Positions 23,331-48,607 of a stretch of 64,000 bases of DNA are shown here, piece after piece (within the stretch, counting starts at the first letter, position 1; every line of letters starts with the position of its first letter). A program made the translations under genes and the position numbers. The stretch is taken from assembly GCA_003024785.1 (NCBI GenBank), contig PUQB01000289.1, positions 145,480 through 209,479 of the forward strand, given 5' to 3'. The notes under the pieces are model-generated. The model was given only the letters and a program-made list of their open reading frames with translations. It was not told where the DNA came from and made no database searches. Source of the DNA: Selaginella tamariscina. Lineage: Eukaryota; Streptophyta; Lycopodiopsida; Selaginellales; Selaginellaceae.

Positions 23331-23658
23331 TTTTAAAACATGAAGCTCTGTTTTAAGTTTACACTCGTTTTCAATACGTGTGTGTGTGTGTCTGTCTGTG
23401 TGCGTACATGCATATAGCTATTATACATGCTATACAAGTATAATACTGTACTTGTAACACATAATTTGTGTATAATACCTGCTATATTTCTGAAGATTGT
23501 GAACTCTGACGTGGTGATTTTCCATTGGCTCATCAAGATTCAGTGATTACTGCTGACTCCTTTAATTACTTAAGATGAATGAAATTAGATCATTGAAGTT
23601 TAATTAGACTAGTAGTACATTGAACAAATCTATTATAAACAAGTCAGTCAAAACATGG
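23331..23658 (-). pseudogene. NUP205: NUP205 fragment C, 3' part, cut off by the MULE
   Basis: On the minus strand this holds the KELKESA..ITES exon (about 23,480-23,570) and its flanking introns. The 5' part of the same copy resumes at 39,213-39,660 beyond the 15.5-kb insertion. The intron sequence up to 23,658 is colinear with 51,540-51,585 (minus copy) and with the reverse complement of 19,205-19,260 (plus copy), which lack the insertion. Confidence 0.7.
23650..23658. repeat. 9-bp target-site duplication (left), AAAACATGG
   Basis: AAAACATGG sits just outside the left end of the large insertion and recurs exactly at 39,204-39,212. Uninterrupted paralogous copies have the site once (CCATGTTTTGA near 19,223-19,233 on the other strand; CATAACATGGATAAG near 51,575). 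Nine base pairs is the hallmark of Mutator-like elements. Confidence 0.9.
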
Positions 23659-23780
23659 GAGTCCCCACAAAAAGAGGGCTTCCGGGCTTGGACCCAAAAT
23701 ATTCTAAAGAATCTACAGAATATTCTTAGAATATTCCTAAAATTTTTAGAATTTAGATTTTGGCTCAGTCGGCAATTAAC
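23659..23780. repeat. MULE left terminal region
   Basis: Begins GAGTCCCCACAAAAAGAGGG followed by CTTCCGGGCTTGGACCC. Three GAATATTC/AATATTC words follow, then AGTCGGCAATT at about 23,768. The pairing with the right end is imperfect but preserves word order. AGTCGGC also occurs in the internal minisatellite and at the right end, making it a candidate transposase-binding site. Confidence 0.7.
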
Positions 23781-23927
23781 AAAAAAAAATATTTAAATCA
23801 TAGCCATGTTTATACTGTATTATTAAAGTTTTATTTCAACACCAAAGAGTACAATTCAACACTTGTCACTTCTTCTTACGATTGAGCAATGCTGCAATTC
23901 GTGAACCACCAGTCCTACTTGACGTCG

Positions 23928-26900
23928 CTATTGTTGGGTTGGGATTTCCTCTGGCTGGATGTTCTCTTTAATCCTGTTCATAGCAATTCTCCCGAGCTCA
24001 GGGTTCTTCTCAGTCCCAACAATGTTTCTCCCCAGCTCGATAGCTGCAAGCATTGAGGACCCCGTACCACTGCCTATATCCCAGATAAGATCACCTGGCC
24101 GGGTGAGTCGTTCTATCACGAGCTGCATCAATCGAGTGCTCTTCGGTTGGTAGTCCATCCTGCATGTGAAGATAATGGTAAATACTTAAATTGTTGAAAT
24201 GAAATGCCTACCATGGTTCTTGGAACCGCTCAGGATTATCAACAAGAATTGTTGATGACAAACGCAGTGGATTATCGCGCAATCCTCTAGATGCATCTTG
24301 GAAGACAAGGAGCAGGATGCTCTCCTGTTAAAACATCAAAATCATTAATGAACTTCATGAATAAAGAAAAAAGTACCTTCATCTTGTTGCGGTAGCCCCA
24401 ACCACGCCCTCTGTAGATGTAGTACGTTGCAGCAAGTTGAAGGTCCACCACACTTGCAGCTCGGACAACTTGATCCCAGGTGTTTGCTGCAGCAAACACA
24501 ACCAACCAACCATTTGCAGCCATATGCATACCTGCAAACTGGAGTGCTTCATCGAACTTCACTGGATCAAGGTAGAGGTATGGCGTATCACTCGTTGTAT
24601 TTCCTGGCAAGGTCCCATTTGGAAGGTCGAAGATCACCAAGTTGAAACCATATTCTCCCGCAATATGCTGGTAGCGAGTCTGGCTGTCAGCTGTATGGTA
24701 CCTGGCCACCTGTGTCTGAACTTTTCTATAAGGAACCAGTCTAGGTCAGGAACCTCCTCTTCCTTCTCATCCGTGAGCACGGCCTGTTGCATCTCCTCGA
24801 TGTCATCAATCGCCAAGAAATTATCACCTCGAGTTGTAGCAAGTGAAGGGACGAATGTGACCAAGTCATCCTTGATGTCCATGGTTCCCTGCGATGGTAG
24901 CACTTCAGATAAATTGAAGAAGGCAGCTGGATCGCGAGTAGTGGAGGTGCCAGCTACTGTATCTGAGTCTTCTTTGACTGCTGCACAGGCTGACGCCGCT
25001 TTGCCTTGGCCTTTGTCTTCTTAATGAAGTCGACCTCTGCCGGATCCCATGAGATGCATGGGAGATCTTTTGAGTGTTCATTGTAGAGATCCTTCTCCCA
25101 TGTTGGTGGTTGCCCAGGTGGATAATCAAGCCAGAACGGTACGTGTACACGCTCGAACTCTGTCAGGCCAGATCTTGTCTTCGACCACATGTGTGGTGCT
25201 TCCATGTAATCTGACCAGAATACCATAGTCTGTGTGTGAGGCACCTTTCTCGCTGCGACATACCTGTAATGAACATATAGTAGTGTCAGAATGTAACAAT
25301 GTCAAGAAGATCATCCTTACCTCCAAATCATCCTTCTTGCTGTCTCTTCGTGTTCGAGGAACTCTTTCGGCTCTATGGAGTAAGTGAACTTCACACACTC
25401 ATGGAATGGCTGGAACATCACGTTCTTGCATTTTACCCGCACTTCATCACCAAGTCGTGAAATCTGTAACCGGCCTGTCCACTCGCCATCCTCGATGAGT
25501 CCCGTGAGAATCTGTACTGCCTCCTCTCTGATTGCTCGCCAATACAAATCGATAGTAAACCACCTTATCCACTCCTTATCCTGAACACCCGGCAATCCAA
25601 GTGTCTCTTGCTCTCTCTTCAGATCGAGACGTACCAGTTTATTGAAGTACATGATTCTCGTCTCGTTTGGAATTCTCGCCCTTGAAAGCGCGTACAGCTT
25701 TTCCAACCCCATCCATCTGCATTGTTTCCATGTGATTTGGGTCACCTTGTCGAACCACTCTTCACCCAATGCAGGATCGATGATGGCTAAGATCTTCATC
25801 ATGCGCTTGTCATGCTTAATGTAGACCTGTTGTTGCTCCTGGTATTTGTTGCCTTTGGATGCCCTTGCAGCCTTCTCAAGATCATCCTCAATCTCACTCT
25901 GTAATTCACAGACGTAATCAACTAAGTAATATAAGTGTGAGACGTGGTACCTCAAAAAAATCTTTGCACAGATCAAATTCGGAAGTGGATGCCAAGCTTG
26001 TTGTCCAGTGCGCTTTCCTTCCACTTTCTTATGTCATCTCGTTCCTTGTCACTGGCCAAGATCTTCGTTGTGCCCTCCTCACTGGTGCAACATGTCTTCA
26101 CAGATAGCAGAAGATGTGGCAGTGTGGTTTGCACTGCCGTTGCGGAGGAACTGCATATTTGAAAATCTCGAAGTTAGTTAATCCTATGATCTAGAGGTCA
26201 CTATGTTTACCTATTAATTTGCTGAAACATTGTCACAAGCTGAAGATTATCCATGACCCCAGCACGGATGAAGCCTGAACGCACTCTCACTGCCCACTGA
26301 TTCTTATCTTCCGTGTCTTCTATGTACAGCTTCTGAAGCACCTTTAGCCTGTGATTACCATCCCAACAGATGAACTTCTTCATCGAAAGCATTGGTGCCC
26401 ATTGCCGGAACATGTCAGACTGAAGCTCCTCCTCAAAAGCCAAATGCTGAGCATACATCGCTTCATCGCTTCTCAATGCTGCCAGATCTGCATCTGTCAT
26501 GGGGTCCCCAACTTGAAGGATGAACTGAGTGGTGTTGACCAACTGCCTTCTTGAAACTCCTAGTCAAAGATTCCAGATCCGCTGGATTGACTCTCCGCAC
26601 CTGCTCATTTCCCAGAATTCGGCAAATAGGGACATCCGGTGCCTCTCCATATTCTCGGATTGTGATCTTCGCGAGAAGACGCACTGCACTCTCCGAATGC
26701 ATGCTGGCTGCAATGTTGTAAACTTCCTCATTATCTGGCACTTCTGCTTTACCCTTCTTCTTCTTCTTAGCAGCCTCTGAATCTCCAGCAGCTTTGCGTC
26801 GTCTCTTCTTGTTCTTGGGTTCATCCTCTTCGTCACTCGACAAAGTCACTGCGCATGAGGCTTGTGTGCCTTCTGTCTGCTCCTGTGTCTCCTGTGGTAA

Positions 26901-27154
26901 GACATCATCCTCAACTTCTTCAACAAAGTCTGATTGTTCTTGTTGGGGTTGAACTACATCCTCTTGCTCTCCTGACCAGTCCTGCTGGCTTGCCTGTTCA
27001 ACTGGAGCATCACTTGAAGGTTCCTGAACCACAGCCAGCTTCCTACTTCCTCTCCCACGACCCGACGCCCTCTCTGAATTGCAGCTCTAGCTTCTGCTTC
27101 TCTCTCAGTAGGCTCCTTCATCTTCTTTTCTTGTAAACGTTGTGAAGAGCGCAT
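23928..27154 (-). CDS. ParB-like domain fused to beta-class DNA amino-methyltransferase (MULE cargo)
   Basis: Six exons on the minus strand with GT/AG borders: 27,154-26,211, 26,150-25,951, 25,898-25,321, 25,263-24,377, 24,324-24,212 and 24,159-23,928 (stop TAG). The start ATG at 27,154 opens a basic/acidic, low-complexity region with a lysine-rich nuclear-localisation-like stretch (KKKKKGK, near 26,750). Then comes a ParB/Srx-like unit: NPADLESLTRSF and, 60 residues on, WDGNHRLKVLQKL (DGNHR at 26,362-26,348). A 250-residue linker of unknown fold follows (exons 2-3). The C-terminal part has motif IV as FDLPNG (24,628-24,611) and, further on, KSTRL..L then DIGSGTG (24,080-24,060) with GRNIVGTEKNPE. 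This IV-before-I order is the beta-class N6-adenine/N4-cytosine methyltransferase layout (CcrM type). A polyadenylation AATAAA follows near 23,835. At least four single-base frame slips occur (near 27,060, 26,560, 26,060-25,990 and 24,710). The product probably acts on DNA in the nucleus. Catalysis is doubtful because DLPN lacks the usual aromatic residue. Confidence 0.75.
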
Positions 27155-27239
27155 CTACAAAAGCAATAAGGTTTAACAAAAAACTGTAATAAATGTTCAA
27201 AGATGTTTAATAAAAATTAAAAAAACATACTAGCCCTCA

Positions 27240-27632
27240 CAGTGGCGTGCCGACTGAGAGAGCAGTTTGTAAGTCCCAGTCGGCATGCCGACTGGGAGCA
27301 GTTGCGTAAGTCCCAGTCGGCATGCCGACTGGGCCTGGCAACAAAGGGAGGCCCAGTCGGCATGCCGACTGGGACTGGCATCAAAGGGAGCCCAGTCGGC
27401 ATGTCGACTGGGACTGGCAACAAAGGGAGGCCCAGTCTGGGACTGGGAACGAAGCGAGGCCAGTCAAAATGCTAGGTGGACTAGAACAGTCAACCCTAGT
27501 CAAAATGCTGACTGGGGCTGGAACAGTCAACCCGGTCAAAATGTTGACTGGATCTGGAACAGTCCACCCCAGTGGCCTGCCGACTGGGACGGACAACGAA
27601 GTCAGTCCGAGTCGGCAGGCCGACTCGGATTT
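27240..27632. repeat. Minisatellite of palindromic GTCGGCATGCCGAC units in the MULE divergent promoter
   Basis: About ten irregular units of roughly 35-45 bp, each centred on CAGTCGGCATGCCGACTGGG or a decayed form (CAGTCAAAATGCTGACTGG; GAGTCGGCAGGCCGACTCGG), separated by CTGGCAACAAAGGGAGGCC. Each unit is a self-complementary site. It lies directly upstream of the ParB-methyltransferase start (27,154) and about 0.5 kb upstream of the transposase start (28,121). The half-site AGTCGGC recurs near both MULE ends (about 23,768; 39,013-39,060). Frames through it are open but encode only the repeat, so it is not a gene. Confidence 0.85.
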
Positions 27633-28120
27633 CTTGCAACTGTGAAGAGATGTAAAAAGATGAACAGATCATGAAGAGATCATGAGCAGATCATGAAGAA
27701 ATCAGAAAATACTCACCCCCTCAATGGAAGCCTATTGTGATTAATCCCTAGAGCCACACTTGCTCCACGCTATGCCCCAAATGAGCCCCTGCTCCATAAA
27801 AACCTAGCCGCCCTAGCTACCCTAGCCGCCCTAATTGCAAAACCCTAGCCGCCCTAAATCAATTAAAAACCAACCTAATTTCTGTAAACATATTGCATGC
27901 ATGATCGCCACTTGTACATAGTAAAACTTTTTAATTTACAAAAAACCTACCCAGACGCAGTAAATTAATTTCACTCTTCTACCCAGACGCACGCAATTAA
28001 TATTATTTTTAATATTTGTCAATGAAATGATTGCCTCACGACTAACAAACACATTAACCATCGTGTGTAATATGTTCATTGTCTTTGAATTTTAACTTTT
28101 GTTTGTTCCATTTTTGCTAC
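27633..28120. promoter_or_regulatory. Divergent promoter/leader region of the MULE
   Basis: Contains GATCATGAAGA repeats (27,665-27,700), a CCTAGCCGCCCTA triplicate (27,806-27,860) and AT-rich DNA up to the first transposase exon. It separates the two divergent genes, so it should hold the transposase promoter. No TATA element can be assigned with confidence. Confidence 0.4.
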
Positions 28121-28583
28121 ATGGCAAGAATCAGCTACAATGGTGTTGACAAGGACTTCCCTGCAGATGAAGATGGTATTGCATTTGTCTTTGAAACAGA
28201 TCTCAGGTCTGCATTTGACATTCCACCTTGGCAATCTTTTAAAGTGCTGCATTTGATGTCTGTTGTTGGTGGAGATGCTGCGAATGTTGAGGTAGAACCA
28301 GAAGGGGCAAGAGCTAGCATTTTGTGTATTACACACTTCTTCCTTCCAAAGGACCACTATTCCGGTTGGAGACAACAGATCGGGACAATTCTATGGTAAA
28401 ATACTTCGCAATAGTCAGAGATGTAGGACTGGGAAGCAACTGGTGGTCTCGTCATCGATTCAGCAAGTTGCTGAGGTCCCAGAAGATTGCAACGGAAATG
28501 TGATTTACGAGTTGCCAGCACACGAAACAATGAAGGACAAGTACAAAGGGATGAATAGGAAGGATGGGTGTGATTACTGGACT
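28121..28583 (+). CDS. MULE transposase, 5' part (split by gypsy insertion)
   Basis: The ATG at 28,121 opens an acidic N-terminal domain (ARISYNGVDKDFPADEDG), followed by a domain with FFLPKDHYSGW. One frame slip near 28,385 leads into IQQVAEVPEDCNGNVIYELP and KDGCDYW, where the sequence is cut by gypsy DNA at 28,581. The same 142 bp (28,439-28,583) is repeated at 36,194-36,335, after which the coding sequence continues. The start is chosen because the upstream frame is AT-rich leader; the alternative ATG at 28,079 would add 14 hydrophobic residues. Confidence 0.65.
28439..28583. repeat. 142-bp direct duplication flanking the nested gypsy DNA (left copy)
   Basis: Runs from ACTGGTGGTCTCGTCATCG to GTGATTACTGGACT; the partner is 36,194-36,335. 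It is transposase coding sequence, so it is host DNA duplicated on insertion. It is far longer than the 5-bp duplication made by retroviral-type integrase. Confidence 0.8.
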
Positions 28584-28837
28584 TTGCAGACGTGCAAAAG
28601 GTCTCCAAGTGACTTCTTGTCGCAGGTGGTGCCTCCAGCAGCTGAGTTGTCGCTCAGTGAACGACGGTTCTGAAGTACTTGGCTTCGCGAAATGCAAGGG
28701 GGGTAATAAAACTTGTGAACTTTTTGGCTGACTCCGCATAGAGTGATTAGTGTTAGTTTTCAGTTAATTTTTCCTAACCTAGTCTAGTCTTGGAGTTAGA
28801 CGTCAACGAGGACGTTGACATTTCCAAAGGCGGGGAG
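28581..28837 (+). mobile_element. Orphan gypsy 3'-UTR joined to the left LTR
   Basis: The stretch from ACTTTGCAGACGTGCAAAAG to CAAAGGCGGGGAG is a second copy of the internal 3' end of the element (34,979-35,229), including its polypurine tract. Its presence upstream of the left LTR means the inserted DNA began inside a preceding, tandem copy. Confidence 0.75.
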
Positions 28838-29818
28838 TGTGTCATAGTTTTTACTATGACTCGACCCTTTACTTTGGGGTTTGACTGTTGTTACCTACCG
28901 AGTTGTGTGGCGAACCCTAGTTGTAGTGAGAAACAGCCCCGCTTAGTGCACTTAGGTGTTTAGGGGTAGTCCGGCCGGCTGTCACTAGGTACCTCGAGAA
29001 ACTCTAGGCGAAGGTAGTACTTACCCTCTAGAAAACTCTCCCCCAGTTTGACGTTACAAAAGATAGGTTTTCCATTAAATATAGCTTGTCAAAAAGGGTT
29101 AGGGACACCCTAGGGTTGACCTAACCCTAGGGTTGCCCTAACCCCACGCCCTAATACCCCCCCCTAGGGGTTAGGTTTAGGGTTAGGTTAGGACAACCAT
29201 TTTCTCTAAGGGCTGGCATTTCCGTGCCAGCCCACTTACTCATTTAGGTAAACAGGGGGGGGGGGGTCCGTCACATAAATAAGGTAGAGTATATGTAGTG
29301 AGGCTTCCTGGGTTCAAAAGAGAGCTCGTTAACCTCCTACCGGTGCAAGCTAAGCTTGTGTCGTCAAGGTGCAACCCTCCGTTGTGCCGCCCAAACTTCC
29401 ACACGACAGGGGTACAACCCACCCTAGGGTTAGACTATCCTTATCGTTGGCAGGATCTTGCCTTTGAGATAGGGGCACGTCACTTCCAAGGAGTTAGTCA
29501 GATTCCTTGGTCCGAAAACCTGCCGCAAGCTCAAAGACATTGCCCGAGTTCACGTTCCGCAAAACTAGTGGTTGAGGCCTTGCTCCGGCCGCCTCAACCA
29601 CGCCAAGCTAGGAACGACACCTAAAGCTCGGCTAGTCCGTGTATCCTGATTCACAAGGTGAGTCTCGTTTGTGGACTTAGTCAGTTAGGGGTTTGAGTTC
29701 CTAAGGCTTGGGTTCCTAATACGGGTTACTTTACCAGTTCCGTGGGGTTTCCAGAGAGGGGATTCCAGGGTTGGCACCTGGCAAGCCGCCTTTGTGGCAC
29801 CAGGTAAAAACTCTGACA
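28838..29818 (+). repeat. Left LTR of Ty3/gypsy chromovirus
   Basis: About 981 bp, starting TGTGTCATAG right after a polypurine tract (AAAGGCGGGGAG) and ending CTCTGACA. It contains a short hairpin (GTCATAG-ttttta-CTATGAC), telomere-like CCCTAA/TTAGGG blocks at 29,095-29,195, a G11-12 run near 29,256 and a CATAAATAAGG TATA-like element near 29,274. The right LTR is 35,230-36,194. Differences between the two look to be mostly small indels. Confidence 0.85.
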
Positions 29819-29820
29819 AT

Positions 29821-29838
29821 TGGTATCGGAGCAAGTTC
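29821..29838 (+). promoter_or_regulatory. Primer-binding site (tRNA initiator-Met type)
   Basis: TGGTATCGGAGC, two bases after the LTR end, differs by one base from the TGGTATCAGAGC used by most plant LTR elements for priming with initiator-Met tRNA. Confidence 0.85.
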
Positions 29839-30145
29839 TCTGCGGTCAGTAGGACTGCCTTAAGTCGTAGGTGTTTCAATGTTTAGATAACTCTAAATTC
29901 TTGTTATACTCTATTGCTTTCGGTTGACATGTCTGTATTCTGCGCAGAGAGTTTGATCCTGTGAGTTGTCAAACTTCGGAGAACACTTGCTCAGTGAGTC
30001 GGCGTGAGATTCTAGGTATGTCCGAAAGTCTTATGCTAGTTTAAGCTGATGTGTGTGGGTGTACAACCTGTGCAGGGTGTTTCCAAGTTTCACATTGGGA
30101 ATATTCCAAGCATATTCTCCGAGTGTTGAACTAGGGTTCAATACG

Positions 30146-31762
30146 ATGAGCAAGAGAAAGCAACCAGAGCCTGAGGCAGAGAGGGCTGTCGCAGAGGCTC
30201 AAAATGAGGAGATGGATGAGGCTGATCCAGGTCGACCCCCTAGAGTTAGACAACGACCTGGTTGGCGAGAAATAATGATGGATGCCCTAAACGAACTTCG
30301 AGGGGTTTTGGGGTTGAACGACCGAATCGATAATGTTGCCGTTCGGATTCCAACGAATACTGCAGTGCCAGATGTTCCGCAACCAGACACACGGAAAAAG
30401 AAGAAGAAGCATGACTCAGAGTCAGGTTCCTCTGAATCAGATTCTTCGACGGAAGTAGGTGGTGGAGGTCCCAGTAAATTCAAACCGGTAAAGCCTTCGA
30501 ATTTCATGGGTTCAAAGGATTACAAGGTTTTGGATGACTGGTTGTATGATATGGAAAGCTATTTCGAGGCTGCTTCCGTGAGAAAGACAGAAAAGGTTGC
30601 ATGTGCCAAGCAGTTTCTTAAAGAAGAAGCTAAGACTTGGTGGCGAATTGTTGAAGGTGAACGTGGATACCGAAACAGCTGGAAGCACATGAAAAAGGAG
30701 ATCAAAAAGCAGTATATGCCGGATGATCTCGGTTTGCGATTGCGTGCTGACCTGGCACTTTGTCAACAGGGAGTTCGGGGAAGTCCAATGGACCACGTTT
30801 ATCGATTCGAAAGTGTACGGCGATTGGTGCCAAATATGAGCGATGATGAAGCTCGAAGTTGCTTCATGGCTAGCTTGAATGAGAAGACGAAGAAAATCTT
30901 AAGGTACAAGCCAACAAGCTATCGGGAATGTCAAGAGGCAGCTCAAAAGGTTGCTTATGGCATGTCGTTAGAAGACTTGTACAAAGGGGAGGAAGCAAAA
31001 CCTAAACCAAGGAAGTTTCCTCCAAAGTCTGGGTTCAGAAGGTTTGATAGGCGACCAGATCAATCGCCATCAATTCGAAGTGCAAGTCCCTTTGTCGGCA
31101 GTTCCAAGTTTTCGGACACATCAAGACCCACCGGATTTCGGAAACCATTGGCGTTACCACCTCCTCAGCAGGCCAAAGGATCGGCTCCAAAGTCTGCTCC
31201 CCCGCGTTCCGCAGGCGGGGTTGTGAAATGTTATAATTGTAACAAGCCTGGTCATTTTGCTAAAGAGTGTCAGGCACCCTCACAACAATCAGGACATTTC
31301 AAGGCGATGGTAGAAGAGGAAGTTGCTGAACCAGAAACGCTTGAAGATCCGGAAGATGAGTCAGAAGAGGTAATGTTGTGCCAGACACAACCTGCCTTAT
31401 TCGCTATTCAAGACAAAACTGACCCTTTGCTATATTTGACAGGAAGGATACGAGGGGACCGAGTCCGAATGATGATCGATACTGGAGCAACATACAACTT
31501 CATATCGACTAGTCTAGCTCGTCGATTGAATTTGGATGTAATAAAGATGTGTGAAATAAAGATCAATTTTGGCAAAGGTTCTCAAAATACTAATAATATA
31601 GCAAGGGCAGTTCCTGTCCAAATCAAAGATTGGAAGGCTAAGCTAGACTTAGTTGTCTTGAATATGACGGGGTTTGACTTTGTTTTGGGTATGGAATGGT
31701 TCCATAAACATGTAATCGAAATGAGGGGTTCGGAGACAATCGATCACGCTTGCAGCAGATAA
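30146..31762 (+). CDS. gag: Ty3/gypsy Gag-protease (chromovirus)
   Basis: Continuous frame from the ATG at 30,146 (the frame is open from 30,053). The N-terminal region is acidic, then basic and serine-rich; a capsid-like Retrotrans_gag domain contains the AKTWWR signature (30,632-30,649). A CCHC zinc knuckle (CYNCNKPGHFAKEC, 31,229-31,270) follows, then an aspartic protease with the DTGA active site at 31,478. The frame ends soon after FDFVLGMEW, so the protease-to-RT link is shifted. It packages and matures element particles. Being intact over 1.6 kb, it argues that the insertion is fairly young. Confidence 0.9.
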   Translation: MSKRKQPEPEAERAVAEAQNEEMDEADPGRPPRVRQRPGWREIMMDALNELRGVLGLNDRIDNVAVRIPTNTAVPDVPQPDTRKKKKKHDSESGSSESDSSTEVGGGGPSKFKPVKPSNFMGSKDYKVLDDWLYDMESYFEAASVRKTEKVACAKQFLKEEAKTWWRIVEGERGYRNSWKHMKKEIKKQYMPDDLGLRLRADLALCQQGVRGSPMDHVYRFESVRRLVPNMSDDEARSCFMASLNEKTKKILRYKPTSYRECQEAAQKVAYGMSLEDLYKGEEAKPKPRKFPPKSGFRRFDRRPDQSPSIRSASPFVGSSKFSDTSRPTGFRKPLALPPPQQAKGSAPKSAPPRSAGGVVKCYNCNKPGHFAKECQAPSQQSGHFKAMVEEEVAEPETLEDPEDESEEVMLCQTQPALFAIQDKTDPLLYLTGRIRGDRVRMMIDTGATYNFISTSLARRLNLDVIKMCEIKINFGKGSQNTNNIARAVPVQIKDWKAKLDLVVLNMTGFDFVLGMEWFHKHVIEMRGSETIDHACSR

Positions 31763-33331
31763 AGAAGACATTAAAAAGACCACGCTCAAAATGGAAACGC
31801 TAACTGATAAGGATTGGAATCCTATGTTCCTTACCTTAACTCAGTTGCGTAAGGCAGTTAGACATCGGGAACGTGTGTTTCTTGCAATGGTTTTGGATAC
31901 TGGTGAAGTCAAAATAGGAGATGGTCAAGAATCTGTTCCTAACCTATTTTGGAAGTCTTGAACATGTTTAAGGATGTGTTGCCAGAAGACTTGCCGCCCG
32001 AGTTACCTCCACGTCGAGTTGTGGACCACAGGATAGAGATTTTGCCAGGTTCGTCTCCACCGGCAAGAGCCCCATATCGGTTGAATCCTCAAGAGTTAGT
32101 AGAATTGAAGAGACAGCTGACAGAATTGATTGGTCGAGGACACATTCGACCTAGTCGATCGCCTATGGTGCACCTATCTTGTTGTAATGAAAAAGGATGG
32201 TACGATGCGAATGTGTGTGGACTATCGAGCGCTGAACGCGATAACTATCAAAAATAAGTATCCTCTTCCACGAGTGGACGACTTATTTGATAGGCTATCA
32301 AAAGCAAAGTATTTTTCAAGAATAGACTTGAGATCGGGGTACCATCAGATTCGGGTAGCAGAGAATGACATTGAGAAGACCGCTTTTCGAACGCGTTATG
32401 GATCATTTGAGTTTCTAGTCTTGCCATTCGGGTTGTGCAATGCTCCAGCAACTTTTTGCACAATGATGGATGATGTGTTTAGAGACTATCTAGACGAGTT
32501 CGTAGTGGTGTATATTGATGACATTCTGATTTTCAGTTCGACAATTGAGGAACATGTGGAACACTTAGAAAAAGTGTTTCAGAGGTTGAGAGAGAACCAG
32601 TTGTATGCTAAAGAAAGCAAGTGCGCATTTGGTCAAACCAAGATAGATTTCTTGGGACACTTGATCTCAGGTGGGGAGGTTGCCATGGACCCAAAGAAAA
32701 TTCAAGCTATTACGAGTGGATGACTTTAAAAGATGTGCATGAAGTTAGATCATTTCTTGGTCTGACAGGGTATTACCGAAGATTCATAAAGGGTTACTCG
32801 GAAATAGCGGCCCCATTGACAGATCTTACGAAAAACATTCCATGGCATTGGACTCCAGAGTGCCAACGTGCGTTCGTCAAACTCAAAGAGGCTATCTCTT
32901 CTGAGCCAGTTTTGCAGTTGCCCATCTTTGAAGATCCCTTTGAAGTAGAATGTGACGCTTCCGACTTTGCAATTGGTGGTGTATTGCAACAGAAAGGACA
33001 TCCAGTGTCCTTTTTCTCGAAGAAGTTAGATGCCGCGCAAACTCGATGGCCTACTCACGAAAAGGAGATGTATGCTATTGTTGCTTCCTTGGAGTATTGG
33101 CGTCATTATCTTCCAAGTCATGGCACTGTGGTTTGGACAGATAGTGTAACTCTAAGGTATTTTGAAACGCAGCCGAAGCTATCGCCGAAGTATGCTAGAT
33201 GGCAGCAGAAGTTGGCACGATTTCAGCCTGAAATCAAACATAAAGCGGGAAAGGACAATGTGGTAGCTGATGCACTCAGTAGAAGGGTCATTTCGAATTA
33301 TGTCAGCACCCATTTCAACTTTGGTGGATGA
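31763..33331 (+). pseudogene. pol: Gypsy pol: reverse transcriptase and RNase H, frameshifted
   Basis: RT signatures are present: [29 protein letters not shown] and the catalytic YIDD at 32,511-32,522, then FLGHLIS. After a shift near 32,720 comes the RNase H part (VECDASDFAIGGVL, DNVVADALSRR). At least three frame breaks lie between the protease and the RNase H. In the family this copies genomic RNA to DNA and removes the RNA strand. As read it is not one open frame, so this copy is non-autonomous or the breaks are assembly errors. Confidence 0.9.
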
Positions 33332-34864
33332 ATTTGTGACGGCGTATCCTCAGGAAGGACAAGTTTGCTAAAGGAGGCTTTGAGCCTGGTGGACAAAGAG
33401 GAAACAAAGTTTCATCATTACGAAGAGATGGTAATATTCCAGCAGGAATAGAAAGTCGAATGGATGCACTCAAACAGGCCATTTTGCGGTACGAGATGGA
33501 GTTCTTTATTATAAAGAAAAGAGACTCTATGTTCCAGAAGGGACATGGAGGGAGAGGCTGTTAAGAGAGCATCACGACGTTCCTTTGGCAGGACATGGTG
33601 GAAGGCATAAGACGTTGGCTTTGTTGAAACAGGGATTCTATTGGCCGGGTATGATAGATGATGTTGCCAAGTATGTCAAGACATGCCCCACATGTCAACA
33701 AGTAAAGAGCCGATCGCAAAAACGAGCTGGGAAGTTGCAGTGTATACCGATTCCAGAGCGGCCATTTCAAAGTGTTACTTTGGACTTTATCATGGGATTG
33801 CCAAAATCTTGTGGTTTTAATGCTCATGGTGGTAGTCGATCGTTTTCAAAGGTTGCTCATTTCATTCCAACTGTAGAGACAGTGAATGCAATTCAAGCAG
33901 CGAAGTTGTTCTTCCACGAAGTCATAAGAGTGCGCGGACTACCGGAAACCATGATCTCAGATCGGGATCCTCGGTTTACGGGGAAGTTTTGGGGACATTG
34001 TTTAAGCAGTTTGGTACGATGCTCAAGTTCAGTACAGCTTACCATCCGCAAACTGATGGTCAACGGAGAGGGTGAACCGACAAGTCGAGGACTATCTCAG
34101 ATGCTATGTTCAAGGTGATCAACTTGATTGGGCTGAACACTTAGATATGGCTGAGATATGTTACAATAACTCGATGCACACTGCAATCGGATGTAGCCCG
34201 ATGGAAGTGTTAACTGGGAATAAGGGTGGTATTCCTCAGAGTATGGTGTTACCGAAAGACGATAGCAATCGAGTTCCATCTGTAGCAGAGTTCACGGGAC
34301 AATTGTATCGAACATGGGAAGCTGCTCGTCAAGCGATGGCTGCAGCAGGAAAGGTATCGTCAGCAGTACGATAAACATCGCGGGATGTAGAGTATCAGGT
34401 TGGGGATATGGTATTGTTGAGTACCAAAAACCTGAAGGTTCCAACGACTCTTTCGAGGAAGTTTCTATCGCACTACATAGGTCCATACAAGGTGGTGAAG
34501 CAAGTAGGGAAAGTGGCTTATGAGTTAGATCTTCCTCCGGAGTTGGGAACAATACACAATGTGTTTCATGTCAATTTACTCGAGCCATTCCACAAGGATG
34601 AGAAACATCCGCAGAGATATGAAACTTACGTCCGCTTCCTGAGCTGGTCGGCGATAGAAGAGTTCGAAGTTGAGTCGATATTGGATGCAAAGGATATTAA
34701 ATCGAGGGACGCGAAAACGTAAACGTGAATATCTTGTTAAGTGGAAGGTTACCCGGCATGCGAGTCGACATGGGAACCATTGGATAATCTACAGAACGCG
34801 ATGGAGATAGTGAATGAGTTTGAGGCAAGGTCTCAAACTGTTAGTAATGATGATAAGAAATAAA
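33332..34864 (+). pseudogene. pol: Gypsy pol: integrase with C-terminal chromodomain, frameshifted
   Basis: HHCC zinc region at about 33,560-33,710 (GHGGRHKTL, then CPTCQQVK), catalytic core with LDFIMGLP and SDRDPRFTGKFW (33,957 on), a GPYKVVKQVGKVAYEL module (34,480), and at 34,725-34,840 a chromodomain signature (EYLVKWK, then ESTWEP after a frame slip). The chromodomain identifies a chromovirus and in the family guides insertion to particular chromatin. Four or more single-base breaks are seen. Confidence 0.88.
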
Positions 34865-35229
34865 GTGAACTTTATTTCTTATTAACCAAGGGGCCGGCAA
34901 CAACCTAACTAGAGGCCTCCAATATAAATTCTAGTTAACTTAAAGAAATTAACTAACTGTTGTGTGCGTCGGGTGACAGACTTTGCAGACGTGCAAAAGG
35001 TCTCCAATGACTTCATGTCGCAGGTGGTGCCTCCGGCAGCTGGTTTACGACTCAGTGAACGACGGTTCTGAAGTACTTGGCTTCGCGTAATGCAAGGGGG
35101 GTAATAAAACTTGTGAACTTTTGGCTGACTCCGCATAGAGTGATATGTTAGTTTTGGTTAATTTTTCCTAACTATCTAGTCTTGGAGTTAGACGTCAACG
35201 AGGACGTTGACATTTTCAAAGGCGGGGAG
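34865..35229 (+). other. Gypsy 3' UTR and polypurine tract
   Basis: Noncoding stretch between the pol stop (TAA 34,861) and the right LTR. It ends with the polypurine tract CAAAGGCGGGGAG immediately before TGTGTC. Its distal 250 bp are duplicated at 28,581-28,837. Confidence 0.75.
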
Positions 35230-36194
35230 TGTGTCATAGTTTTTACTATGACTCGACCCTTTACTTTGGGGTTTGACTGTTGTTACCTACCGAGTTGTGT
35301 GCGAACCCTAGTTGTAGTGAGAAACAGCCCGCTTAGTGCACTTGGTGTTTAGGGGATAGTCCGGCCGGTGTCACTAGGTAGAGAAACTCTAGGCGAAGTA
35401 GTACTTACCTCTAGAAAACTCTCCCCCAGTTTGACGTTACGTAGGTTTTCCGTTAAATATAGCTTGTCAAAAAGGGTTAGGGACACCCCTAGGGTTGACC
35501 TAACCCTAGGGTTGCCCTAACCCCACGCCCTAATACCCCCCCTAGGGGTTAGGTTTAGGGTTAGGTTAGGACAACCATTTTCTCTAAGGGCTGGCATTTC
35601 CGTGCCAGCCCACTTACTCATTTAGGTAAACAGGGGGGGGGGGTCCGTCACATAAATAAGGTAGAGTATATGTAGTGAGGCTTCCTGGGTTCAAAAGAGA
35701 GCTCGTTAACCTCCTACCGGTGCAAGCTAAGCTTGTGTCGTCAAGGTGCAACCCTCCGTTGTGCCGCCCAAACTTCCACACGACAGGGGTACAACCCACC
35801 CTAGGGTTAGACTATCCTTATCGTTGGCAGGATCTTGCCTTTGAGATAGGGCACGTCACTTCCAAGGAGTTAGTCAGATTCCTTGGTCCGAAAACCTGCT
35901 CGCAAGCTCAAAACATTGCCCGAGTTCACGTTCCGCAAAACTAGTGGTTGAGGCCTTGCTCCGGCCGCCTCAACCACGCCAAGCTAGGAACGACACCTAA
36001 AGCTCGGCTAGTCCGTGTATCCTGATTCACAAGGTGAGTCTCGTTTGTGGACTTAGTCAGTTAGGGTTTGAGTTCCTAAGGCTTGGGTTCCTAATACGGG
36101 TTACTTTACCAGTTCCGTGGGGTTTCCAGAGAGGGGATTCCAGGGTTGGCACCTGGCAAGCCGCCTTTGTGGCACCAGGTAAAAACTCTGAACA
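35230..36194 (+). repeat. Right LTR of Ty3/gypsy chromovirus
   Basis: Partner of 28,838-29,818. Telomere-like blocks lie at 35,480-35,575. It ends CTCTGAACA against CTCTGACA on the left, then runs straight into the 142-bp duplicated transposase sequence. Confidence 0.85.
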
Positions 36195-36335
36195 CTGGTG
36201 TTCGTCATCGATTCAGCAAGTTGTTGAGGTCCCAGAAGATTGCAACGGAAATGTGATTTACGAGTTGCCAGCACACGAAACAATGAAGAACAAGTACAAA
36301 GGGATGATAGGAAGGATGGGTGTGATTACTGGACT
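36194..36335. repeat. 142-bp direct duplication flanking the nested gypsy DNA (right copy)
   Basis: Starts ACTGGTGTTCGTCATCGATT and ends GTGATTACTGGACT, matching 28,439-28,583 with a few indels. The transposase frame continues from here into CTCAACGCTGCAC. Confidence 0.8.
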
Positions 36336-38978
36336 CAACGCTGCACAACACATTGGAATGTTCTAGCTCGTGTTAGTCGCAATTCATGTATTGGCCACAT
36401 GAAATGCATAAAGGAAACATGTCCGTTCATCAGCTTAAGTAAGAAAGCAAATGACTGCCAATTTAAGGGCACCATCGATAAAGTCCAGTTATCTTCAGAT
36501 GGTAGAGTGCTTGGATGAAGTGTGTGCATTGCAACAATGAGCCCCTTCTAGTGCAGACATGCTCCGTTGTTGCATATTACATAATTTCAGATGATATCAC
36601 ATGCACGAGGCTTTTTCATCCATCTTGAAGAACATCAACATCCACGTAGACCACCCGAATCCATGGTCTCTAAAGACAGAGCTAAGGAGACAATCAACAA
36701 AGCAGTCGCTGCAACCCCAAGAACTAATCAACGTGTCATAGAGTTTCAAGCAGCACGCAATATAATTTTGGAAAAACTGGTAACAGTTCTGGAGATGTAT
36801 CATACGACAAGGTTCTGTCAGATCTACTACCACTCACAAATCACCGCCGGTAAGCAAAAAATTATTATTTCCTTTTGGAGATGCTTAACCTTCCACTGTA
36901 GAACAAGAGATGGATATCTCAGGCTAGAACAAGAGACACTTCGTTTCAAAGAAGGTTACGAAGGACTTCTGCAGTTAAAGAAGAAGCTATCAATCCATTC
37001 ATACTGTATCCACATACCCGGAATGGACCTCCACGGAGCGCCTTTAATCTTCAAAATGACGGTTGCCGGCCCAGGATCCGGAATAGACTACATTAGAAGT
37101 GTCAATCTGGAGGTGATCTCGAACAGGTGGGTGGTGCTAGACCACACATATCGTATTGATGATTGGTGTACACTGGGAATACATCTCTATGATCCATTGT
37201 AAGTATTAACATATCTATGTTTTAAAATACTTACTAATATAATGCACTTATGTTTGTGTAGTTTAAGGTTGATAGTGACACTTGCTTATGGTGACATGAT
37301 CAAGGAGGATAGTGTGGTGGTGATCAAATTTTTGAACACTATGCTTCAAGTGTGCAGCAAGCAAGGACTTCATAATGTGAACTTTACGGGGTTCATGTCA
37401 GATGAGTCAGGTGCAATTTGGTTAGCATTGCGTCAAGTTTTCAAACAATGGGTCAAAGATGAAAGGAAGAGAAAGGAGTTGTGTTTCATTACATGCAGTC
37501 AGTGCGTCAAGTTACAAAGAAGTGGATACTTGAGGAACACAGGGAGGAGCACATGAACCTTGCACGCTCATGGCCTGCAGCACTAACCAACCAAGATAAG
37601 TTGGAACGACGAGTAATGTTGGAGTCATTTTGGGAAGGCAGGTCCAGTAACGTTAGCGCTTTGCAAACATGGCTATCATGGTGGGCAAGACATGAAGATT
37701 ATATTTCCATGACAGAGATAATTGACTTGACAGAAGATGGTGTTGCGAATGTGCCTACCACTAATAACTCCGAAGTTGTTCATGCAAGAGCACGAAGAGC
37801 AAGGCTGACGAAGCGTGTTCCTTTGTTGGAGGCAACAATGTTAGATTTAACAGATGCTGTTTTCCAAAGTGCAAAGGTCAAGGCATCATTTGAAGGGAGT
37901 ATTCAGGCACAGGTCCTTCCATGGAAACTCTTCTGAAACGTGCACAGCAGAAACTTTCAGCGGGAAAATCAGTGTCTCCAACAACTTTTGCAAATCTTGT
38001 TAGTGATGAAGAGCATCTTGCAAGTCTAGATTTGCCTCTACAACAAATATTCGTGTTCGAACCGTTCGTCAAACCGTCACTGGGGACCATAGGATTGATG
38101 CGCTTCGTACACATAGACATGACACACAATATGCAGAACAAGTCATCCCAAATGCACGCAGGAAAAACTCAAGTTTCAAGATGTCAATGTCACTGAAAGA
38201 GAGACGTTGATGACTCAGTGGGCCATCAGACGCATTGGGAGGCAAGTCAGGTGAAATGTCTAGGTCTCACTCAGGACGGTAACAGCAAGTGTGGCAGACC
38301 CATAGGATATCCACATCGTGTACCGACACAGGATTTCACGGTAGACGGCAATATACCTGCATTTGAGAACATTGAGTTCACTCATCAGATGTTATGGTTC
38401 TGCCCACGCGATTCTTGTTGCTTCAAACGACCATATGCAGGGATTCCTCCTGAGAGTATTCCGAAGTTCTAGAGGTTTGGCCAGTTCAAAAAGGAACAAA
38501 CTTGAATGCAAATGAGGTTGAAGCTCTTCTAAAAGCAGGATTCAAGTTGGAGGGATTTGAAGAAATGGTAGACGACAGTAGTAGCCGAATGGATCGAACA
38601 CCATCACCACCAAGAGGAGAGGGAGCACATAGAGTACCAACATACCATGGACGGAGTGTGCGAACACCAACAAGAATGTCTAAGGAACATGAGAAACATT
38701 ACAACCAAGCAAAGATTCTTCAAGGTTGAATCAACAACGTGGAGGTGATTCAAAGAGGGAAGACTGAGGCCTTCATTGTCTCTGCAGGCATGCAATCTGC
38801 TAAGGTAACAATTTCTACTGTTCCGTCATGCACTTGTGCAACTTTTCAGAAAGCCAAGAACTGGAGCCCCTGCCAACACATATATTTGTGTACACTCATG
38901 TTCTTGGATTGGACCCACGATTACTTACTTCTTACAGAGGCGGACCCTTACTCCAGCAGAAGTGCATCGGTTAATTGA
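36205..38978 (+). CDS. MULE transposase, 3' part (MURA-like DDE with SWIM zinc finger)
   Basis: The coding path has several frame slips. In order: a Cys/His cluster (about 36,315-36,470; WTQRC..HWNV, CIGHMKCIKETCPF) like the zinc fingers at the N-terminus of MULE transposases; a helical region; the DDE core with WVVLDHTYRID (Asp at 37,140), an intron at 37,199-37,259, then GFMSDESGAIWLAL (Asp at 37,401) and CVFHYMQSVRQV (37,476 on); a second Cys-rich domain (38,257-38,420; KCLGLT..SKCGRPIG, CPRDSCC); and a SWIM finger CTC..CQH (38,829-38,879). The stop is at 38,976. In the family it cuts the element at its ends and makes 9-bp duplications, agreeing with the flanks. The gypsy insertion and indels make this copy inactive as read. 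Confidence 0.8.
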
Positions 38979-39009
38979 TTACAAGCGCAATGTCGAACCT
39001 GCGACCTTT

Positions 39010-39203
39010 TAAGTCCAGTCGGTATAGTAAAGTCTAGTCGGCAAATTTTTCACTTGTTGGTCGGCATTTTATATTGAAAAGTTAAAGATAATCTACTTGG
39101 CAGAATATTCTAGAATATTCCCGTTTATTTGACAGAATATTCTTGGATATTCGGGAATATGCGAAAAAGCCCGTTGTACGAAGCCCGGTTTTTGCTAATC
39201 CTT
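39010..39203. repeat. MULE right terminal region
   Basis: Carries CCAGTCGGTATAG, CTAGTCGGCAAAT and TTGGTCGGCATTT (39,013-39,063), then CAGAATATTCTAGAATATTC (39,101-39,120), GACAGAATATTCTTGG and CGGGAATATGCG, and ends AAGCCCGGTTTTTGCTAATC plus CTT. Word order mirrors the left end. Confidence 0.7.
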
Positions 39204-39212
39204 AAAACATGG
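39204..39212. repeat. 9-bp target-site duplication (right), AAAACATGG
   Basis: Exact partner of 23,650-23,658; NUP205 intron sequence (ATAAGTTATACACATACA) resumes directly after it. Confidence 0.9.
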
Positions 39213-42299: not shown

Positions 42300-45200
42300 T
42301 AACACTTCCCTTGAACGTGAGCAAAACAATTGCTTGTGTTCATCCTAGAAGAATCGTACTCCCCCTCAAACCAACGTCCCAAAAACAACATCTGAACAAC
42401 TGTTTTAATCTACACATCCCAAAAAGCTCCTTCTCCCCTCAGAAGTTTGGACATATAAGGCTAAGTTCTCCCCTAAGATGCACGAAGTCAGGCTCCATAT
42501 TTGCTTTGTGAGAACATCTGCAAGCAACAACTTGGATGGTTTATACTGTAGGTCTATGGCCCCTTCTTCAATCAGGTTTGTCAACCAAAAGCCATGTACT
42601 TCCATGTGTTTGGTGCGGTGTTGTTTCATAGGATTCTTTGCAATTTGTAAAGCACTTTGATATCATTAAAGAGAGGAAAGATAACCTAAGTGTTCAATCC
42701 AATATTGGCTAAGAGTTTGCAAATCCATATGGCTTCTTTTGTTGTAAAGAAAATAACTTGGAATTTTGCTTCTGCTGTGGAAGTAGCAAGGCATTCCTGT
42801 TTCTTGCATTTCCAACTAACTACACCACCAAACATAAGAAAACACCCAATTAGTTTTAGAAGTACCATTATCATTAGAAGCAAATCATCATCTATATATC
42901 TTACTAATAGAGAATGTGAAGAAGATGAATATTTTATACATGTTTTTTGTGTGCATGAGATAACAAAGTATATGTATGGCAGCAAACCAATGCCTACGAG
43001 TTGGATTTTGCATATGCTGACTAAGAAGTACTACAGTAGGAGCTATGTCGGGTCTACGAGTTGGATTTTGCATATGCTGACTAAGACGTACTACAGTAGG
43101 AGTTATGTCGGGTCTAGAGATAGTAGCTAGATACATGAGAGCACCTATAAGATTGGAATATGGAAATGTGTGTGTGTTTGGAGAGGAAGCAAGTGACATA
43201 TCTTGATTATCATGACAATGCACTAGTGTTTTAGAACTACGAGGTAAAGGAGCAGGAGTACTCATAGGTTTCTTATCAAATATTTATGAGTGAAATCTAG
43301 ATAGAATGGTGTCTATGTACTTAGATTGATGCAAATATATATCCCCAGAATGTGTATTACGAAAACCTGAAGTCCAAGGCAGTGAGTGAGCTTGCCCATA
43401 TCTGTCGTGTGAAATGAAGTTGAGAGTTGTTGCTTAACTCCAAAGATTAAATCCTCATGTGCCACAACAACAAGGTCATCTATATAAACACCAACAAGGA
43501 TAATTTGATTATCTATATATTTAACATATATATTAAAATCAGCTTCTGTCCTTTGGAAGCCATGTGCTATGAAATGTGTGTTTATTGTCTCATAACCATA
43601 TATGTGGGCTTTGTGTCAAGCCATATATTGGAACGAGACAACTTACACACCAAACCTGGTGGAGAGTTTATCTCAAACAATGGAGGTTGTTGCATATAAA
43701 GCTCTTGATCCATTGATCCATACAAAAAGCATTCTTAACATTTATTGGTGAACTTGAAGTTTCAAACTTGCAACTAAAGCTAAGAGAACTTGAATAGAAA
43801 TTAGCTTTATCATATGAGAGAATATCTTTGTATAATCCATACCTTCCTTCTGTGAACACCCTTTAGCGACTAACCTACTTTAAACCTTATTATCTCACCT
43901 TTAGAGCCATATTTGACTTTATAAAACCCATTTACACGGTATCAAATGAGCACCTGCAGGTAAAGGTTGAAGTGTCCATGTCCCATTCTTCAATTGTGCC
44001 TTGTACTCTTCTTGCATTGCTTGTAACACTTCTTCCAGTGAGGACTACTACGAGCTTGTTCAAGAGTCAATGGCTGACTGCAACATACTCAAGCCAATGC
44101 TTAGTAGGCTTGTGTGCTTGTTGAGAATGCCTCGGAACTTATGATTGTTACTGCAGAAAAGAATTATTATGATGTAGAATATGTTGAAGGGCCGTGGAGA
44201 TAAAGGGCGTGGACTTAAATGACGTGGAGATAAGGGTTGTGGAGATAACAGAGCGTGTGGAGATAAGGGTTGTGGAGAAATAGAGCGTGTAGAAATAGAA
44301 CATGAAGAATTAGGGTGTTGTGGAGAAACAGGGTCTATATCCAAGTTTGAATCTTCTGAGGATGAATACACAGTAGCCTCATATTTTGATGCCCAATCAA
44401 TATATCCTTCAGAGAGTTGGGCACAAGCACCCTCGTCAAGCCGCAAGGTCCTACGAGTAGTTACTTGCTGTCTTTGTGGAAGCCAAACACGATATCCATC
44501 CTTTGTATGTGAATCATAGTCCAACATAACACATGGTTCAACATGGTCTGAATCTTTATATTGACACTCATCAGGAGAAACAAAAAAAAAATAGAAGGAA
44601 TAGTGCCATACCAGAGTTAATAAGGAGTAGCATCCTGAAAGCTTAGTTGGAAGTAGATTCTGTAAATAAACAGAAGTGGCAATTGCTTTTGCCCAAAAAC
44701 CACACAACATATTCTTAGCTTTCATCATACTTAGCACACTCTTTCACAGTTCTCATTTTCCTTTCCACAACACCATTCTGACCTTTATCATATGACACAG
44801 ACTTCTCTCTAAGTACATCTCTCTTAGTAAGCTCTCAAACTCTTTGTTATTAAATTTAGAACCACAGTCACATTCAGTCTCTCTTTGAGCTAAATCAATC
44901 CAACTAAAAATGCAACAAATGTCTCAAACTCTTACTTATAAACTTAACTAACACAAAACGAGAATAATCATCAACCATTAACAGAAAGTACTTTCTATCA
45001 CCAATAAACACACATCTCATCTCACCTGATAAATCTACATGTATAGTTGTAAACACATAGTAGCTCTATGTGAAGCTTTCTTTGGTAGTGGTTTCTTACT
45101 CATTTTACCTAAAGCACATCCTGAACATAGAATACTAGTGAGAACAAACTTAGGCAGTTTAAGGTCTTTAACTAAATGGGCAATTTGCTTAACACGAGAA

Positions 45201-45640
45201 ATACTAGCATGTCCAAGTCTTAAATGCCATATTTTAAGAATATCTACATTTTGAACAGACACAGTACATGCTATAAACTTTTGAATGTACACAAAGTATA
45301 AGTCACCACTTCTAGAAGCTTTATACAAAACTTATCAAGCAAAGATACACATGCATAATCTCTCTCAAATGAAATATATACCAATATTAGATAACTTATT
45401 GACAAACAAAAGATTACGAGAAAGTTCTGGAACCAGCAATACTAGCAATGCCCACTTTCTATGAAATAGACAACGTGTTAGATTCGTAAGCCAAGAAGCA
45501 AACCGAGTCATGTGGTGTGTGGGCCCACTATCTAGCCACCACCCATTACAAGAAGAAACACCTGTGTGGCTAAGTGAGCAAAAACTCAAGAAAACGGGGA
45601 GAAATAGGTTCTTCTTTTGATTTTTGAACAGGATCTACAG
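42300..45640 (-). pseudogene. Ty1/copia retrotransposon, degraded
   Basis: Minus-strand domains in order from right to left: protease WWLDSGPTHHMT (about 45,545), the GAG-pre-integrase motif WHLRLGHASISRVKQIAHL (45,230), the integrase distal part NMLCGFWAKAIATSVYLQN (44,700) and YGYRVWLPQRQQ-like core (44,480), a SPRPLSP low-complexity segment (44,190-44,330), then RT/RNase H remnants with SRPDITPTVVRLSQHMQNPT (43,060-43,110) and CLATSTAEAKFQVIFFTTKE (42,730-42,800). The RT catalytic YVDD and the integrase D-D-E core are not readable. Long spacers of frame-broken sequence show it is dead. No clear LTR pair was identified. Confidence 0.8.
43000..43118. repeat. 60-bp tandem duplication inside copia RNase H region
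   Basis: The unit CTACGAGTTGGATTTTGCAT plus ATGCTGACTAAGA.GTACTAC occurs at about 42,997 and 43,057. Its length keeps the frame, doubling a 20-residue stretch around SRPDI..T (minus strand). Confidence 0.8.
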
Positions 45641-47799: not shown

Positions 47800-48607
47800 A
47801 TTGGCTTCAGTTCCGAAATCAATTTCTTCAGCGCATGCAATATCTGAATCTTGTAAGGATGATGTACAATTAAATGATGAAGGGATAGGCAACGAGATAG
47901 TCAACGGATAAATGTGAAAGGGAGCAAACAAGTGATTTGCAAAGTATTCAAGAGGCAACGCTATCCATGTTACTCATGGCCATATTGTGTTGTTGGATGT
48001 CAATGGTGTTCTGCTTCATCGACAAAGGCCCGAGGATAGGAAAAAAGAAATCAAACAAGGAGATTTCATTCCTTGTCATGGTAAATTTCGATATGATATT
48101 ATTTTTCGTCCAGGGTTGGATCGTCTCTTTCAAAAGCTTAAGGAGATGGGTGCGCTTGTGGGGATTTGGTCATGCATGCAGATTCATAACTTAACACCGC
48201 TGTTGAATTTGCTTAAGAAACATTGTAGTGTTGCAGAAGAGGTGATTCGTAAAGATTGGATTTTTGACCAGCGAATGTTATAAACCTCTCGAATTTCACA
48301 ATATAAAAAGGAAAGCAAGCCATACTTCTTCAAGAATGAAAGAATAATTGGGACTCATGGGGAGATCAGTCGCTTAAGGATAATGAAGAACGCACAGATG
48401 TTAGTAGACGACTCTCCTCAGAAGGCTATGCTCAACCAAAACATTGCTTGTATTCATCCAATCACTTTCGATCCATATTCTGATACCGATATCATGGATG
48501 AGCTAGTGAACTACTTGGATACGTGCCTCAGAAAGAAGAATCTCGAAAATTTTTGTGAGCAGTATCCACCGTATCAAACATTTCCTGAAGCTTTTCTTTT
48601 CTCGTGA
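47800..48607 (+). pseudogene. FCP1/NIF-type HAD phosphatase-like protein, frameshifted
   Basis: The first part (about 47,957-48,280) has LLDVNGVLLHR at 47,987, then FRPGLDRLFQKLKEMGALVG and IWSCMQIHN. After a shift and stop near 48,280 the second part (48,383-48,607) has MLVDDSP (DDSP at 48,407) and NQNIACIHPITFDPYSDTD. These are motifs I, II and IV of the CTD small-phosphatase/TIM50-like HAD family. Motif I reads DVNG rather than DxDGT, as in plant-specific LDLNG-type members, so phosphatase activity is uncertain. A further frame (48,720-48,842; ATPNCIRESVKWWQQHQDID) may be its C-terminus. The start is unclear. It sits downstream of an unrecognised broken gene on the same strand. Confidence 0.65.

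Follow-up and report, generated by a model that had tools for sequence, protein, structure and literature searches.

The combination of a ParB-like domain and a DNA methyltransferase is already known in transposons, according to the passages of one source, from a brown alga and, by citation there, from green and red algae (PMC12477816). In the brown alga Ectocarpus, the 21.5 kb element Sola1-1_Ec32 of the Sola-1 superfamily carries an accessory gene for a predicted protein of 1104 amino acids (aa) with ParB-like and N4C/N6A methyltransferase domains, and the passages that describe this protein offer a role for it only as a possibility (PMC12477816). Green and red algae are described as having similar proteins in their transposons (Iyer 2011; Petroll 2025, as cited in PMC12477816), giant red algal EnSpm elements with accessory genes are mentioned alongside them (as cited in PMC12477816), and phage fusions of ParB with an N6_N4 methyltransferase have been listed (PMC12704722). 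Here we describe a gene of this kind, called the cargo gene, in a putative Mutator-like element (MULE) of the lycophyte Selaginella tamariscina. The sequence analysed, referred to as the window, is a stretch of 64,000 nucleotides of contig PUQB01000289.1 (positions 145,480 to 209,479, forward strand), and all coordinates count from its first letter unless a contig is named.

The Selaginella cargo resembles that of Sola1-1_Ec32 in encoding a product of some 1,000 aa that includes a methyltransferase domain, on the strand opposite the transposase of a DNA transposon, a likeness of domain layout in which the ParB part is weak. It differs in its carrier, which is MULE-like and about 8–9 kb long. 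The green and red algal proteins are of the same kind by description, and the passages of PMC12477816 that treat them name no MULE example. Like the phage fusions, the cargo unites both kinds of domain in a single protein carried by a mobile element, whereas its introns, long middle region and degenerate motif IV set it apart from those prokaryotic proteins; our searches against phage proteins gave a convincing match for the methyltransferase half only. Plant two-gene elements of the MuDR/MULE type share with the present one a 9 bp target-site duplication, a SWIM-like finger, a weak PF10551 match and an accessory gene, but here the two genes are divergent and the transposases of both families described below score under the Pfam cut-offs. 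The accessory gene of MuDR, mudrB, does not encode a methyltransferase. The Selaginella case contributes the MULE-like carrier, the two distant families in one genome, the signal of selection and the degenerate motif IV; a search of a literature library found no paper in which "Mutator-like", "ParB" and "methyltransferase" stand together. We think it rather probable that the cargo is the second, accessory gene in a long-standing MULE-like lineage with two genes, and that its product acts on the DNA of the element.

The cargo gene occupies 27154–23866 on the minus strand and consists of six exons separated by five GT-AG introns of 52–60 bp. The model was built from 11 copies, namely the window copy and ten others from the same genome, which together form the family-1 comparison set. 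Its exons are as follows.

26211 to 27154, minus strand: exon 1, a charged N-terminal region and the ParB/Srx-like motif WDGNHRL (gene model; the family-2 counterpart matches DndB below the cut-off)
25951 to 26150, minus strand: exon 2, middle region (gene model; aligns to family 2)
25321 to 25898, minus strand: exon 3, middle region, in which domain searches found no known domain (gene model)
24377 to 25263, minus strand: exon 4, with the methyltransferase motif IV region FDLPNG at its end (gene model)
24212 to 24324, minus strand: exon 5 (gene model)
23866 to 24159, minus strand: exon 6, the motif X/I region for binding of S-adenosylmethionine (SAM), matching PF01555 at 4.5e-10

The spliced cargo of one copy, C69, is 1,011 aa long with no internal stop, and in this product WDGNHRL (exon 1) starts at residue 265, FDLPNG (exon 4) at 791 and DIGSGTGSS at 941, the DIGSGTG and GRNIVGTE motifs both lying in exon 6. 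The initial annotation had proposed a single intron-containing gene with these motifs in this order, ending in a beta-class permuted methyltransferase, located inside a MULE and divergent from its transposase, and each of these points found support, for a methyltransferase-like domain and a MULE-like element. Of the extent it gave, 23928–27154, the 27154 end stands, while the other end reaches slightly beyond, to 23866.

Exon 6 has at least 151 matches in the genome, a lower bound, as 150 were scored among 1,245 first-look candidates. Together with the match of exon 6 to PF01555 above the cut-off, this number argues that the cargo gene is not a product of chance; the gene, which the initial annotation expected in other members of the family, is present in all ten copies compared. 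Among the exon 6 matches listed, 98 are identical across all 97 residues, which looks like a recent burst of the element. The window copy of the cargo is disrupted by several small insertions and deletions relative to the other copies. Its frame is uninterrupted in only one of the 11 family-1 copies (C69), and at one alignment column the frame-preserving base is kept in 5 of 11. Part of these single-base insertions and deletions may be artefacts or errors of the long-read assembly.

The element around the gene, with its ends and its second gene, is laid out as follows.

23659 to 39203, no strand assigned: whole family-1 MULE-like element, from homology end points against ten other copies and from 9 bp duplications
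23650 to 23658, no strand assigned: left target-site duplication AAAACATGG, identical to the 9 bp at 39204–39212
39204 to 39212, no strand assigned: right target-site duplication AAAACATGG, matching the left 9 bp
28121 to 39012, plus strand: MULE-like transposase gene, interrupted by a retrotransposon, with a candidate DDE-type motif near 37131 and a SWIM-like finger near 38826–38880, both found by eye

The plus-strand transposase is thus divergent from the minus-strand cargo. Eight of the ten other copies have both ends located, and in these the element measures 7.3–8.0 kb. A perfect 9 bp duplication is present at five of the nine independent family-1 sites (window, cA/cG, cB/cE, cJ and cF), that of cF, whose left end is shortened, being judged by eye; none was seen for copies cC, cD, cH and cI. 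The pairs cB/cE (C746, C523) and cA/cG (C981, C147) have common insertion sites and long flanks, and so sit in duplicated segments or unmerged assembly haplotypes. The family-1 transposase scores 0.019 against the SWIM profile PF04434, and the family-2 transposase 0.0058 against the MULE profile PF10551 with nearly the full profile covered, both below the cut-off. Checked for long terminal inverted repeats, the element ends showed only short similar stretches by eye. On the weak SWIM and PF10551 scores and the 9 bp duplication, the element is read as MULE-like. These boundaries also refute the idea that the cargo is a host gene lying beside or between transposon pieces: all 11 copies compared have it inside the boundaries of the element, and five of nine independent sites show 9 bp duplications. 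Nothing was found in favour of a host gene, and we regard it as hardly credible.

The same pair of genes exists in a second family. A degenerate pattern for WDGNHR, excluding the codons of the window family, was run on the genome and gave 125 matches, versus 0 with the reversed control. Of the 100 matches listed, 95 carry one identical 17-base sequence, and ten of these 95 loci, once fetched, all align to copy L046. The family-2 cargo is 25% identical to that of the window over 1,045 columns (E 4e-90). A complete element, the copy on C746, spans about C746:140226–149005 (8.8 kb) with the 9 bp duplication ATTATTTTA, found at the one family-2 site tested. The family-2 transposase is divergent to the cargo and related to that of the window, with tblastn pieces of 29–55% identity (best E 1.9e-98, copy cE), and the palindrome GAATATTCTAGAATATTC stands at the transposase-side end in one tested copy of each family. 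Because the same divergent pair recurs in two families with low identity of both cargo and transposase, the pairing is, to judge by these alignments, an old diversified partnership and not a single recent capture. As a separate observation, L047 and L048 (on C450 and C627) each stand for another decayed family that contains the WDGNHR motif. L048 also contains a receptor-kinase-like stretch, which we take to be of plant type, and a kinase fragment from it had no PDB match at 1e-20.

Selection on the family-2 cargo was examined with 11 sequences and the reference L046, leaving out L038, which represents the same place. Masking covered unrelated stretches of L036, L039, L045, cB and cE and, in addition, 20-base windows with at least 8 mismatches. 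The count was restricted to the 694 codons for which four or more sequences were available. Private variants are neutral: 148 of 210 are nonsynonymous, where 147.8 would be expected, with 17 stops. Protein changes are depleted among variants that at least two copies share, of which 34 of 78 are nonsynonymous where 53.2 would be expected; none of 4000 simulations was as low, and a companion run agrees (0 of 5,000). For variants in three or more copies the figure is 14 of 32 against 21.7 expected (P 0.003). The depletion persists when any one of cE, L036, L039, cB or L043 is removed, with 20 of 49 against 33.3 without cE and 31 of 71 against 48.3 without cB (0 of 4000 simulations each); cB and cE represent one duplicated insertion site, and variants confined to that pair are no proof of transposition. 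By part of the protein, the depletion reaches 10 of 25 against 17.5 expected in the N-terminal region (P 0.0025) and 16 of 35 against 24.2 in the middle region (P 0.002). Since shared variants are depleted of protein changes and private ones are neutral, the pattern points to selection for the cargo protein during propagation of family 2, which is older than the young window family. This purifying selection, with the pair kept in a second family, agrees with the role for the element that had been ascribed to the gene at the outset.

The methyltransferase half (METHYLTRANSFERASE) is the better defined part of the protein. Window exon 6 matches PF01555 (N6_N4_Mtase) at 4.5e-10 and 40.3 bits, and the family-2 cargo at 2.8e-7 and 31.2 bits, against a cut-off of 26.7 bits; in both cases the matched part of the profile is its motif X/I end. 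The combined domain reaches 1.1e-11 against PHROG DNA-methyltransferase profiles, and residues 2–183 of the 200-aa family-2 domain match phrog_498 at 6.5e-5. Against PDB chains, the combined domain finds MboIIA (3.6e-4), DpnA (1.7e-3) and CcrM (2.8e-3) over the motif I end, with ribosomal L11 methyltransferases ranking among them (2.2e-3). Single hhalign comparisons of the two-family alignment with two phage methyltransferases span 165 and 171 columns (4.8e-7 and 5.3e-5). The first comparison keeps motif IV in register, with TDPPYG of the phage enzyme standing over IDPPTG of family 2 and FDLPNG of family 1; in the second, the phage motif TDPAY is followed by a gap. Motif IV precedes motif X/I in the cargo, the permuted order of the beta class. 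Given these profile matches and phage alignments, a permuted beta-class fold like that of amino-methyltransferases is well supported as a sequence-based prediction. SAM motif I is conserved between the two families, whereas motif IV varies: it reads DLPN in 14 and DLSN in one of the 15 family-1 copies read, DPPT (L046) and DLPI (cB) in the two family-2 copies read, and GDFPTG at the corresponding position of L047, the third, decayed family.

The N-terminal half is harder to place. The window cargo contains D-G-N-H-R, a motif of the G-x-x-R type, which aligns together with its flanking residues between families 1 and 2. A passage of PMC10853773 terms DndB a ParB-superfamily protein. Sub-threshold matches (Pfam 6.8e-4, PADLOC 7.4e-4, NCBIfam 0.013) connect part of DndB with the D-G-N-H-R stretch in the family-2 domain; they cover 27–28 residues only, and the family-1 domain gave no DndB match. 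An hhalign comparison with P1 ParB fell in the expected register and was non-significant (probability 0.3%), and a search of the family-2 ParB region against phage proteins returned nothing convincing. A ParB/Srx-like identity for this part of the cargo is unproven. The ParB-like domain named in the initial annotation thus survives as a DGNHR motif with sub-threshold likeness to DndB; of the two domain profiles it called for, the N6_N4_Mtase profile matched and the ParB profiles did not.

Between the divergent genes lies a repeated sequence that could serve such a domain.

27240 to 27628, no strand assigned: intergenic array of the perfect 22 bp palindrome CCCAGTCGGCATGCCGACTGGG, with a period of 37–40 bp and, in the window, three units with the exact 20 bp core

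The array occupies this position in the 11 family-1 copies compared, with 3–8 units matching the 20 bp core, and shuffled window sequence contained no such array. The half-site AGTCGGC also occurs near each element end; outside the array it was counted twice against 0.36 expected (P 0.046) in one copy, weakly above chance. Tandem palindromes of this kind resemble iterons or parS sites. We put forward the array as a candidate site of the ParB-like part, and only as a hypothesis because it was not found in family 2.

The proposed function of the cargo combines these parts. The product, some 1,000 aa long, has a region with the ParB/Srx-like motif, then a middle region, and finally a methyltransferase domain of the permuted N6A/N4C type; we infer that its target is the DNA of the element. 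Recognition of this DNA, or loading onto it, would fall to the ParB-like part, perhaps together with the middle region, and in family 1 the central array of palindromes is the candidate site. Once there, the methyltransferase fold would bind DNA and SAM, and would either place an amino-methyl mark or, with DLPN as its motif IV, act as a non-catalytic binding module that aids transposition or expression.

Several results weigh against this proposal. No ParB profile (PF02195 or a relative) matched in Pfam, NCBIfam, PHROGs or PADLOC. AlphaFold models of the region were poor, with a predicted local distance difference test (pLDDT) score of 51 for a 139-aa piece, which was too short, and 43 for a four-row alignment. 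Families 2–4 were retrieved with the WDGNHR pattern, the very motif that supports ParB, so that its invariance among them is by construction. The central palindrome array, as stated, was absent from what was searched of family 2. The beta-class consensus of motif IV is [DNS]-P-P-[YFW], in which the aromatic residue serves for stacking, and this residue is present in no copy read of either family. The family-2 selection test spans exons 1–5, upstream of the methyltransferase core, where copies were too few; in the ParB-like part the depletion is 8 of 18 against 11.6 expected (P 0.06); and the shared variants include three stops, each in two copies, which may reflect recurrent C-to-T change, descent by segmental duplication or copied dead lineages. 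The window family alone gives no selection signal, with 10 of 17 shared variants nonsynonymous against 12.6 expected (P 0.11); its private variants stand at 84 of 123 against 87.4. A simple ratio of nonsynonymous to synonymous change (dN/dS) below 1, obtained from six family-1 loci, was rejected: two loci are partly homologous, and for the other four the effect was gone after correction for C-to-T/G-to-A.

The lack of detectable selection in family 1 and the broken frame in 10 of its 11 copies are what would be expected of a functionless passenger, captured in the manner of a Pack-MULE. Against this, the gene is paired with a transposase rather than alone, the pair is conserved between two distant families, and one of them shows selection; we rate this explanation as highly improbable. 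The proposal of an accessory protein that acts on element DNA has two branches, which differ in whether it catalyses.

In the first branch, an active N6-adenine/N4-cytosine methyltransferase would mark the DNA of its own element for protection, as a licence for transposition or against silencing. The permuted fold and SAM motif I of both families, and the D-P-P retained by family-2 copy L046, fit such an enzyme. Against it stand the DLPN and DLSN of family 1 and the DPPT and DLPI of family 2, all without the stacking aromatic, and methylation activity therefore cannot be assumed. Decay of the copies adds a further objection. C-to-T and G-to-A changes dominate substitutions in both families (61 of 79 counted in C650), and in the older family-1 copies C650, C562 and C561 C-to-T falls on CG and CHG more often than the numbers of such sites predict. 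Cytosine-5 methylation followed by deamination leaves C-to-T at such sites. This pattern suggests that the host methylates cytosines of element copies anyway, apparently without protection from the cargo; the evasion of silencing offered in the initial annotation finds no support here. Catalysis by the cargo is unproven, and we hold the active-enzyme branch to be possible but doubtful.

In the second branch, a dead or weakened methyltransferase fold would bind DNA or SAM and work as a cofactor of the transposase or as a regulator of the divergent promoter. A motif IV that is degenerate in both families, despite selection on the protein in family 2, speaks for it, as does a palindromic array in the promoter region that the two genes share in all 11 family-1 copies compared. 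The SAM motif conserved between families is less easily explained in this way, some enzymes are active with a motif IV other than DPPY, and the array was not found in family 2. We consider this branch possible, though less likely than not. A bolder form of the proposal would see a MULE lineage with partition-like self-recognition, in which the ParB-like domain loads at the palindromic iteron array between the two genes, from where it spreads or bridges, while the fused methyltransferase fold is the writer or reader of a base mark of bacterial type, a self-mark rivalling host cytosine methylation. We consider this form unlikely.

With two distant families that keep the pair, and selection visible against the neutral decay of single copies, the accessory-gene proposal can be tested as the claim that the element depends on the protein. 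The two families, their common end palindrome and the internal array offer concrete sites for binding tests, and elements that are high in copy number and nearly identical suit direct reading of N6-methyladenine and N4-methylcytosine (6mA/4mC). Protein-database searches with the family-1 cargo and transposase (E ≤ 0.001) and with the family-1 and family-2 cargo alignment (E ≤ 10) returned no match, both cargo searches scoring only the roughly 8,000 candidates with the most words in common; because the database may hold few eukaryotes, missing homologues say little about plants and algae. A scan of viral contigs found no relative.

The remaining feature of the element is the insertion that separates the pieces of its transposase gene.

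28580 to 36193, plus strand: Ty3-type long terminal repeat (LTR) retrotransposon in the transposase gene, with LTRs at about 28580–29816 and 34979–36191

Its LTRs are 96.8% identical over 1,241 bp. Elsewhere in the window, 42400–45300 holds what we take to be decayed pieces of a Copia-like polyprotein, and the reading frames at 47901–48600 presumably belong to a gene like those for CTD/NIF-type phosphatases.

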